DNA from: an uncultured Reyranella sp.
Lineage (GTDB): Bacteria > Pseudomonadota > Alphaproteobacteria > Reyranellales > Reyranellaceae
Direction: 5' to 3'
Assembly: GCA_937919085.1 (NCBI GenBank)
Contig: CALFRN010000235.1
Span: forward strand, 1-39,323
DNA length: 39,323 nucleotides
In this document: piece by piece, positions 22,379 to 28,203 of the stretch
Layout of the letters: every line of letters begins with the position of its first letter
Numbering within the stretch: the stretch's first letter is position 1
Translations under genes and position numbers: made by a program
The notes under the pieces: model-generated
What the model was told of the DNA's origin: nothing
The model's input: only the letters and a program-made list of their open reading frames with translations
The model's database searches: none

Positions 22379-23653
22379 ATGGCCATCAATATCCTGATGC
22401 CCGCGCTCTCGCCGACAATGACGGAGGGCAAACTCGCCAAGTGGCACGTCAAGGTGGGCGACACGGTCACGTCTGGCCAGGTGATCTGCGAGATCGAAAC
22501 CGACAAGGCGACGATGGAGGTCGAGGCAGTAGATGAAGGCCGGATCGGTCAACTCGTCGTACCCGAGGGCGCCGAAGGCGTGAAGGTGAACGCGGTCATC
22601 GCCGTCCTGCTCGAGGAAGGCGAAAAGGAAGTCGCCAAGGTCGCCGCACCTGCTGCGGCTAGTCCAGCGCCCGCCACCAAGCCGGCCGCGCCGCCGCCGC
22701 CAGCTCCAGCCTCCGTATCGGCCCCGAAGCCTGCAGCCCCGGCCCCGGCTAAGCCGGGCAATGGCGCGCGTGTCTTCGCCTCGCCACTGGCCAGGCGTAT
22801 TGCGGCGGACAAGGGACTCGACCTTTCCCGGATCAGTGGCAGCGGCCCCGGTGGTCGAATCGTCAAGGCCGACGTCGAGGCGGCGAAGCCTGGCCGGGCC
22901 GCGGCGCCGACCACATCCGCCGCAGTCAAGCCGGCGACAACGGAGCAGCCGGTCATTGCCGCACCTGGCGACAGCCGCGTGCCACATACCTCCATTCGCA
23001 AGGTCATCGCGCGGCGGATGCTCGAGTCCAAGCAGACGGTGCCGCACTTCTACCTCACGGTCGAATTCGAGATCGATGCCCTGTTAGCGGCACGCCAGGC
23101 GATCAACGCCGTGACGGAGAAGAGGGGCACCAAGGTTTCGGTCAACGACATGGTGATCAAGGCCTGCGCCAAGGCGCTGCGCGATCATCCCGAATGCAAT
23201 GCCTCATGGACCGAGGACGAGATGATCCAGTACGGCGCGGTCGACATCTCGGTCGCCGTGGCGACGGACCGCGGCCTGATCACGCCGATCGTGCGAAACG
23301 CCGACATGAAGGGGCTGGCTCAGATCGCGGCCGAAATGAAGGATCTCGCGGCACGCGCCAAGGCCGGCAAACTCAAGCTCGACGAATTCCAGGGTGGAGG
23401 TTTCACGATCTCCAATCTGGGCATGTTTGGGATCAAGAATTTTGCTGCCATCATCAACACACCGCAGGCCATGATCCTGGCCGTTGGCGCAGGCGAGGAA
23501 CGGGTGGTGGTCCGCAAGGGCCAGATGGTGGTGCGCAACATGCTGGACTGCACGCTTGCCGTCGATCACCGTGTCGTTGACGGTGCACTTGGGGCACTGT
23601 TTCTCCAAACGCTGCGTGCCTATGTCGAACAGCCGGCTGCAATGCTGGCCTAG
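22379..23653 (+). CDS. pdhC: Dihydrolipoyllysine-residue acetyltransferase (E2 of pyruvate dehydrogenase)
   Basis: The 424-residue E2 has one lipoyl domain (residues 1-80, Lys in ETDKATME) and an Ala/Pro linker. A peripheral subunit-binding domain follows (around residues 133-165, FASPLARRIAADKGLDLSRISGSGPGGRIVKADV), then a second linker and the catalytic domain with the acyltransferase signature DHRVVDGALGALFLQTL near the C-terminus. It forms the core of the complex and transfers acetyl from lipoamide to CoA. GGAGG precedes ATG 22379. The lpdA Shine-Dalgarno overlaps its stop codon. Confidence 0.97.
   Translation: MAINILMPALSPTMTEGKLAKWHVKVGDTVTSGQVICEIETDKATMEVEAVDEGRIGQLVVPEGAEGVKVNAVIAVLLEEGEKEVAKVAAPAAASPAPATKPAAPPPPAPASVSAPKPAAPAPAKPGNGARVFASPLARRIAADKGLDLSRISGSGPGGRIVKADVEAAKPGRAAAPTTSAAVKPATTEQPVIAAPGDSRVPHTSIRKVIARRMLESKQTVPHFYLTVEFEIDALLAARQAINAVTEKRGTKVSVNDMVIKACAKALRDHPECNASWTEDEMIQYGAVDISVAVATDRGLITPIVRNADMKGLAQIAAEMKDLAARAKAGKLKLDEFQGGGFTISNLGMFGIKNFAAIINTPQAMILAVGAGEERVVVRKGQMVVRNMLDCTLAVDHRVVDGALGALFLQTLRAYVEQPAAMLA
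22394..22539 (+). repeat. Lipoyl-domain repeat, copy 2 (in pdhC)
   Basis: Partner of the 21003-21148 block, in direct orientation and ungapped, with about 89% base identity. It encodes the lipoyl-domain core of E2. Confidence 0.9.
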
Positions 23654-27005: not shown

Positions 27006-28172
27006 CTAATGCTTTGGAATTTCGACTGTTGCCACGGCCTGCGCGGCAATGCCTTCACGGCGACCGGTGAAGCCCAGCCCTTCCGTCGTGGTCGCCTTTA
27101 CGCTCACGCGGTCGCGGTCGATACCGGCGATGCGCGCGATGCTGCCGGCCATTGCCTCGCGGTGAGGGCCGATGCGCGGCGCTTCGCAGATAAGAGTGAG
27201 ATCGAGGTGGACGATCCTTCCGCCGCGTTCGACAAGAAGCCCCACGGCATGACGCAGGAAGCGGTCGGAGGAGACGCCGAGCCATTGCGGGTCGGACGGC
27301 GGAAAGTGCGTGCCGATGTCGCCGGCTCCAATTGCGCCCAATACGGCATCGGTAAGTGCGTGCAGGGCAACATCGGCGTCCGAATGGCCGCTGAGCGACT
27401 GGGCATGGGGGATGGGGATACCCCCAAGAACCACGGCGCTGCCGGGAGCGAAGCCATGCACGTCGAAGCCGAACGCGACACGAGTTTCCATTGTCGACAA
27501 CTGCTGTAGATCCTCGATCGTGGTGATCTTCCGGTTGTCCGCGCTGCCGGGCACCATGACGATCCGCAGGCCAGCATGCTCGGCGACGGCAGCGTCATCG
27601 GTGAGCGCCGTGGCTTCGGTTCCGGCCAGCGCTGCCGCGGCGCGATGTGCTTTGAGCACTGCCGCGAACCTGAAGACTTGAGGGGTCTGCGCTCGCCACA
27701 GATTGTGGCGAGACACGGTTTCGGAAACGGCGTGCCCCTCCTCGACACGCTTCAGTGTGTCGAGGAGGGGCACGCCGAGAATTGCGCCATCAACGCCGGA
27801 TGCGGCTGCGGCTTCGAGGCAGGCGGTGATGTCGCTTGCCCGTACGAACGGCCGGGCGGCATCATGGATCGCGACAAAATCGGGGGACTCGGGGACCAGA
27901 GCCTCAAGGCCGTTCAGTACCGACTGCTGTCGGCTTGATCCGCCCAGGACTGGTGCTGGCAGGTCGAAACCGGCGGCCGACGCCTGGTAGTGAAGCTCAT
28001 CACCAGGGGCGATCACAACCTGCAGCCGGCCGATGCCGGGGGCAGCCCGAACCGCGGCCAGGGTATGCCTCAGGACTGGTTGGGTGCCCAAAAGCGCGTA
28101 CTGCTTAGGCAGCGGACCGCCAAAGCGGCTACCGCGGCCTCCGGCGACAATCAGGGCAGTACAAGTAGCCAC
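27006..28172 (-). CDS. ispDF: Bifunctional IspD/IspF (MEP cytidylyltransferase / MECDP synthase)
   Basis: The predicted 388-residue fusion carries out steps 3 and 5 of the non-mevalonate isoprenoid pathway. The IspD half (residues 1-230) has ALIVAGGRGSRFGGPLPKQY, the FVAIHDAARPFV motif and LWRAQTPQVF. The IspF half (about 233-388) has VAFGFDVHGF, the metal-site GHSDADVALHALTDAVLGA, DIGTHFPPSDP and the C-terminal VSVKATTTEGLGFTGRREGI. Fused ispDF is frequent in alphaproteobacteria. GTG 28172 gives the usual N-terminus; TTG 28181 and GTG 28187 are alternatives, and a longer frame to 28268 would run into the palindromic regulatory region. A perfect 21-bp inverted repeat lies inside the IspD part. 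Confidence 0.95.
   Translation of the reverse strand: MATCTALIVAGGRGSRFGGPLPKQYALLGTQPVLRHTLAAVRAAPGIGRLQVVIAPGDELHYQASAAGFDLPAPVLGGSSRQQSVLNGLEALVPESPDFVAIHDAARPFVRASDITACLEAAAASGVDGAILGVPLLDTLKRVEEGHAVSETVSRHNLWRAQTPQVFRFAAVLKAHRAAAALAGTEATALTDDAAVAEHAGLRIVMVPGSADNRKITTIEDLQQLSTMETRVAFGFDVHGFAPGSAVVLGGIPIPHAQSLSGHSDADVALHALTDAVLGAIGAGDIGTHFPPSDPQWLGVSSDRFLRHAVGLLVERGGRIVHLDLTLICEAPRIGPHREAMAGSIARIAGIDRDRVSVKATTTEGLGFTGRREGIAAQAVATVEIPKH
27728..27777. repeat. Perfect 21-bp inverted repeat inside ispDF
   Basis: Bases 27728-27748 are exactly complementary to 27757-27777, with an eight-base loop GCTTCAGT between. On the coding strand the repeat spells the IspD residues GVPLLDTLKRVEEGHA. An 11-bp near-palindrome (GTTTC/GAAAC) follows on the coding strand. 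No T-tract is present. Confidence 0.95.
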
Positions 28173-28203
28173 GGCATCCAATATCACTGTCCCTGTTGGA
28201 GTG

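Follow-up and report, generated by a model that had tools for sequence, protein, structure and literature searches.

A perfect 21-bp inverted repeat inside the ispDF gene of an uncultured Reyranella sp. is most probably (rough probability 0.87) the scar of a quasi-palindrome correction, in which template switching during replication would have started from a seed made of the codons for the motif D-T-L-K-R-V, possibly in two steps. The repeat was confirmed, as the original prediction had it, at positions 27728-27777 of the window (the whole stretch of 39,323 nucleotides that was analysed), where one arm of 21 bases (27728-27748) is matched base for base by the reverse complement of a second (27757-27777), the two enclosing an 8-nt loop (27749-27756). 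With one mismatch allowed, the stem reached 24 bp with a 2-nt loop. The features of the site are given here with their coordinates in the window.

27006-28175, minus strand: ispDF, bifunctional MEP cytidylyltransferase / MECDP synthase, 389 aa, read from a putative TTG start at 28175
27757-27777, minus strand: 5' arm in coding sense, C GGC GTG CCC CTC CTC GAC AC, taken as the template
27749-27756, minus strand: loop of 8 nt, in coding sense ACTGAAGC, inside the T-L-K-R codons
27728-27748, minus strand: 3' arm in coding sense, GT GTC GAG GAG GGG CAC GCC G
27729-27737, minus strand: tract putatively rewritten, window coding GGGCACGCC versus sister GGCGGCATC
27744-27761, minus strand: seed, the codons of the D-T-L-K-R-V motif, GAC ACA CTG AAG CGT GTC

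The gene was assigned as a fusion of IspD and IspF from matches to NCBIfam NF006899, TIGR00453 and TIGR00151, each over its cut-off. The seed codons alone already make an inverted repeat, though an imperfect one, and do so in many relatives as well as in the window; the DTLKRV residues are encoded in many species as GAY ACG CTG AAG CGY GTC, an inverted repeat centred on CTGAAG. Both arms are in codon register on either side of the two codons CTG AAG, so that length and frame survive. Folding of 70 nt of the plus strand as RNA gave -53.1 kcal/mol (z -9.4), and none of 200 shuffles was as good. The coding-strand fold (72 nt) gave -49.5, the lowest value among 60 same-genus homologues (next -42.3, median -29.05, sd 5.6).

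The list of relatives comprised the best 80 of 585. There were 129 distinct ispDF rows, 63 of them at least 70% identical to the window, and these were reduced to 60 by dropping L159, in which the site lies outside the aligned piece, and L040 and L043, which repeat the species of L158 and L160. Within the genus, 65 genomes were searched, among them that of the window, and a readable site was found in 60; G006 and G034 gave no match, and G007 and G020 gave a short match only. The full stem was present in one of the 60 same-genus ispDF genes, that of the window. The original prediction placed the repeat in a conserved part of ispD, which holds for G134, D139, T140 and K142, each invariant in 60/60 genes, but not for the EEGHA codons (145-149), which vary among the 60 genes. 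Codon 138 encodes Ala in 56 of these genes, and Leu (CTC, the complement of GAG) in the window and its sister only. A search of solved structures listed entries for IspD, IspF and IspDF; the stretch probably lies in the IspD dimer arm.

The sister species (L114, a record identical to L004 and L033) was paired with the window at 100/100 support in a tree of 61 rows, namely the 60 rows minus the partial L165, plus the outgroups L047 and L048, from which the hairpin codons had been left out. The two ispDF genes share 84% DNA identity and differ at 180 of 1167 sites (about 15%). Their coding sequences across the repeat are:

Window: GGC GTG CCC CTC CTC GAC ACA CTG AAG CGT GTC GAG GAG GGG CAC GCC GTT
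Sister: GGC GTG CCC CTC CTC GAT ACG CTG AAG CGT GTC GAG GAG GGC GGC ATC GTT

The 5' coding arm of the sister equals that of the window save for one transition (GAT for GAC), and the inner 3' arm, CGT GTC GAG GAG, is identical in both. At the loop edge the sister has ACG and the window ACA. The outer 3' arm reads GGG CAC GCC in the window versus GGC GGC ATC in the sister, and five differences fall there within six bases of one arm (27730-27735, plus-strand positions). All five complete pairs with 27768-27776, where Watson-Crick pairs take the place of three mismatches and two G-T pairs, and every base of the window tract is that of the 5' arm in reverse complement. The random chance that five differences would all favour pairing is (1/3)^5 = 0.004, codon constraints being ignored in this figure. 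The sister is already a quasi-palindrome centred on CTGAAG; of its 14 pairs one is G-T, and CTCCTC / GAGGAG is included. In the opposite sense, the window has lost the innermost pair of the sister, with ACA/CGT in place of ACG/CGT. A degenerate query of 29 bases, taken from the sister-type arm, gave no match in viral contigs.

Of the five differences, one leaves the protein unchanged, and the other four alter two residues, Gly148 to His and Ile149 to Ala as compared to the sister. Because these four change residues, the stem was not built by codon choice alone; the earlier statement that codon choice had created the hairpin was wrong, since pairing requires both replacements and Leu138 as well. 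Codon 148 encodes Gly in 38 and His in 2 of the 60 genes, a frequency that suggests that the change took place in the window, as judged from present-day relatives and for a 3' arm that is variable.

The window was aligned with the sister contig of 28,085 bases, with a main block at window 7929-33037 (88% identity); the scan for clustered differences also took in another block, of 2.9 kb, and two short secondary matches. A cluster was defined as at least four near-adjacent differences, and for each window tract a source was sought within 60 nt in the sister, in that direction only and on this one contig. Four of 139 clusters had any reverse-complement source, which was 18 nt long for the hairpin and 4-5 nt for the other three. 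The reverse-only control gave 4 matches (longest 10) and the complement-only control gave 6 (longest 7). The hairpin cluster was the only one of the 139 to stand out.

Two other tracts were observed in the course of the scan. A second dense cluster of differences (7/9 bases) lies at window 27800-27808, in ispDF codons 123-126 and 22 bases from the hairpin, and no reverse-complement source for it was found within 60 nt in the sister contig. At window 22742-22751, a 10-base tract occurs nearby in the sister reversed and uncomplemented; this is a match of the reverse-only control and is probably due to chance.

The course of events that we propose starts from the self-complementary DTLKRV codons around CTGAAG, which would let the nascent strand fold back on itself. 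The starting state would have been as in the sister, with the seed extended to 14 pairs, one of them G-T. In the window lineage, the replicating strand may then have switched to the opposite arm, taken over the outer 9 bases from the 5' arm in reverse-complement form, and resumed synthesis on its proper template. A single event of this kind would have turned the quasi-palindrome into a perfect 21-bp stem, with five bases and two residues changed in a variable part of IspD. Template-switch correction was among the explanations first put forward for the hairpin, and it is supported by the arms of the sister (a prior imperfect repeat, with the changes clustered on one arm), by the tree, and by the cluster scan, in which a match of 18 nt was obtained for the hairpin versus 5 nt for the next cluster and at most 10 nt in the controls. 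Counterpoints are the 180 differing sites of the gene, which leave room for ordinary substitutions, and the dense cluster at codons 123-126, by which the hairpin cluster is not unique in ispDF. One sister species alone separates the window from the rest, and the change may have come about in one event or in several. An earlier copying step of the same kind may well have produced the shared CTC CTC / GAG GAG extension, because Leu138 and these codons are common to the window and its sister; the evidence for this step is less strong, since the window-sister branch is not divided by any of the species sampled.

The rarity of the stem bears on whether it could have built up by chance. A census of perfect stems with loops of 3-20 nt was made in 61 stretches of the window's own genome (561,791 bases, 11% of the genome, window included), and the 21-bp stem was the longest, followed by stems of 15, 14, 14 and 13 bp. 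Those of 15 bp (L219:4983-5016) and 14 bp (L195:24-54 and L222:4851-4889) also exceed the maximum of five shuffles of this sample (562 kb, within 120-base blocks), in which no stem was longer than 13 bp. The longest stem in other genomes was 13 bp (82 stretches, 352,771 bases, with L033 overlapping L167/L168). The window's 16-residue peptide was also redrawn 200,000 times with synonymous codons, using the codon frequencies of 17 long window ORFs (putative genes), and the 20 outer pairs were reached in none of the draws, the best run being 14. The stem was originally said to be far beyond chance, and these results uphold that view. Divergence of 15% from the sister allows many substitutions, a high G+C content makes pairing easier, and the genome sample has its other stems of 14-15 bp above the shuffles; but with such shuffles and draws, and with the hairpin as the sole cluster of 139 to have a long reverse-complement source, a chance build-up of independent substitutions is scarcely credible. 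Equally little can be said for homologous-recombination import of a different allele, with the pairing incidental. Clustered differences can be recombination tracts, but the 9 nt of this tract agree with the opposite arm at every base, GGG CAC GCC occurs at these codons in 0/59 other same-genus genes, and the sole other gene with His148 reads GGC CAC ACC. When a stretch of 101 bases was searched against the complete genome of the window (525 contigs, 4.9 Mb) at E <= 0.001, it matched only its own site and its own opposite strand; no second copy of the palindrome was found, nor the further genome copies of a dispersed palindromic repeat element. The assembly in 525 contigs leaves some room for an assembly or library artefact, by which template switching in vitro, or a read folded back on itself, would have put the palindrome in the sequence only, and chimeras are reported to arise in strand-displacement amplification (PMC9484634). 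Such an artefact is improbable, in that the length, the reading frame and the flanks on both sides are preserved, which would take a short double switch returning to the right place; a simple fold-back chimera would presumably not return, and the sister already holds 14 of the pairs.

The stem might instead be a selected RNA or DNA element that sets IspDF output through transcription attenuation, ribosome slowing, protein binding or RNase III cutting. Its fold is very stable, the lowest of the 60 homologues, and its length would in principle suit RNase III. When the 3' arms were dealt anew among the 58 of 60 genes that are gap-free at the site, the true arm pairings beat the reshuffled ones: of 2000 deals, the observed value was reached by 0 for the mean stem run, 2 for stems of at least 14, 73 for the longest stem and 37 for the pair count. 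Without the window and its sister (56 genes), the signal was weak, with 65, 150, 1143 and 260 of 2000 deals reaching the respective values, and shared ancestry can explain the remainder. Covariation of the two arms across ispDF relatives, a check named at the outset, was not borne out, with the full stem in one gene of 60; the innermost pair of the sister is broken in the window. No run of at least four T was found within 12 bases past the stem on either strand, the hairpin was not listed in the terminator scan, and no Rfam family reached its gathering score (the best two scored 23.6 bits against 84 and 22.9 against 50). The T-run expected after the G+C-rich stem of an intrinsic terminator or attenuator is thus absent from these 12 bases, and a stem kept with compensatory changes, as in a conserved structured RNA, was not seen in the 60 genes. 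The intragenic attenuator or processing site that had been suggested, and a conserved structural role in general, found no support in these comparisons; as to protein binding, it is the lack of conservation that bears on it. Selection for such an element is quite unlikely as the origin of the repeat.

Template switching at a quasi-palindrome, the preferred explanation, has known parallels, which are compared here as far as excerpts of the reports describe them. Quasi-palindrome correction by this route is known from the E. coli thyA, rpsL and lacZ reporters under the Ripley model (PMC7202029, PMC8604942). As in ispDF, an imperfect inverted repeat in a gene is brought closer to perfection there by copying from arm to arm; the E. 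coli cases, as excerpted, are laboratory mutations (loss of function or reporter reversion), whereas that of ispDF would be an in-frame change in a wild species. Template-switch multinucleotide changes are described for 39 yeast protein-coding genes (PMC8604942), where arm homogenisation in coding DNA likewise alters neighbouring amino acids and is detected by comparing relatives. The yeast work in that excerpt used strains with inferred ancestors, in contrast to one bacterial gene and one sister species, without ancestral states, for ispDF. Perfect inverted repeats in protein-coding genes with working products are also reported for Nematomorpha mitochondria (PMC6649704, in part), but those palindromes are numerous and up to 284 bp long, and the ispDF stem is a single one of 21 bp, an outlier in its genome sample. 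A perfect stem from one event, as proposed for ispDF, is described for template switching that gives rise to RNA hairpins (PMC8794818); the excerpted cases are RNA genes with functional structure, whereas the ispDF stem is apparently a by-product. Inverted-repeat frequencies in bacteria are given, in the portion consulted, by PMC10434271.

The mechanism is already known, and the ispDF palindrome is a natural bacterial example of it, a clear case in an isoprenoid-pathway gene, and no new class of system. By this route one known mechanism would account for a two-residue change that codon-based tests would score as several independent substitutions. It also illustrates that a very improbable hairpin in coding DNA need not have a function. 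It is doubtful, as far as the sequences go, that the DTLKRV codons act as a standing template-switch seed and that inverted copying writes part of the IspD variation among Reyranella-type species; if they did, the codon-register arms and loop would let codons cross the motif repeatedly with the frame unbroken.

Quasi-palindromes of 14 pairs, with G-T counted, were also observed at ispDF codons 136-147 (window numbering) in L150, L165 and L044, each with its own arms, unlike those of the window. L150 and L165 read CCC CTC GCC GAT ACG CTG AAG CGT GTC GGC GAG GG at the site, and the repeat of L044 has one mismatch inside. L150 and L044 fall within one part of the tree of five rows (94/64, not starred), and L165 is not among the rows of the tree.
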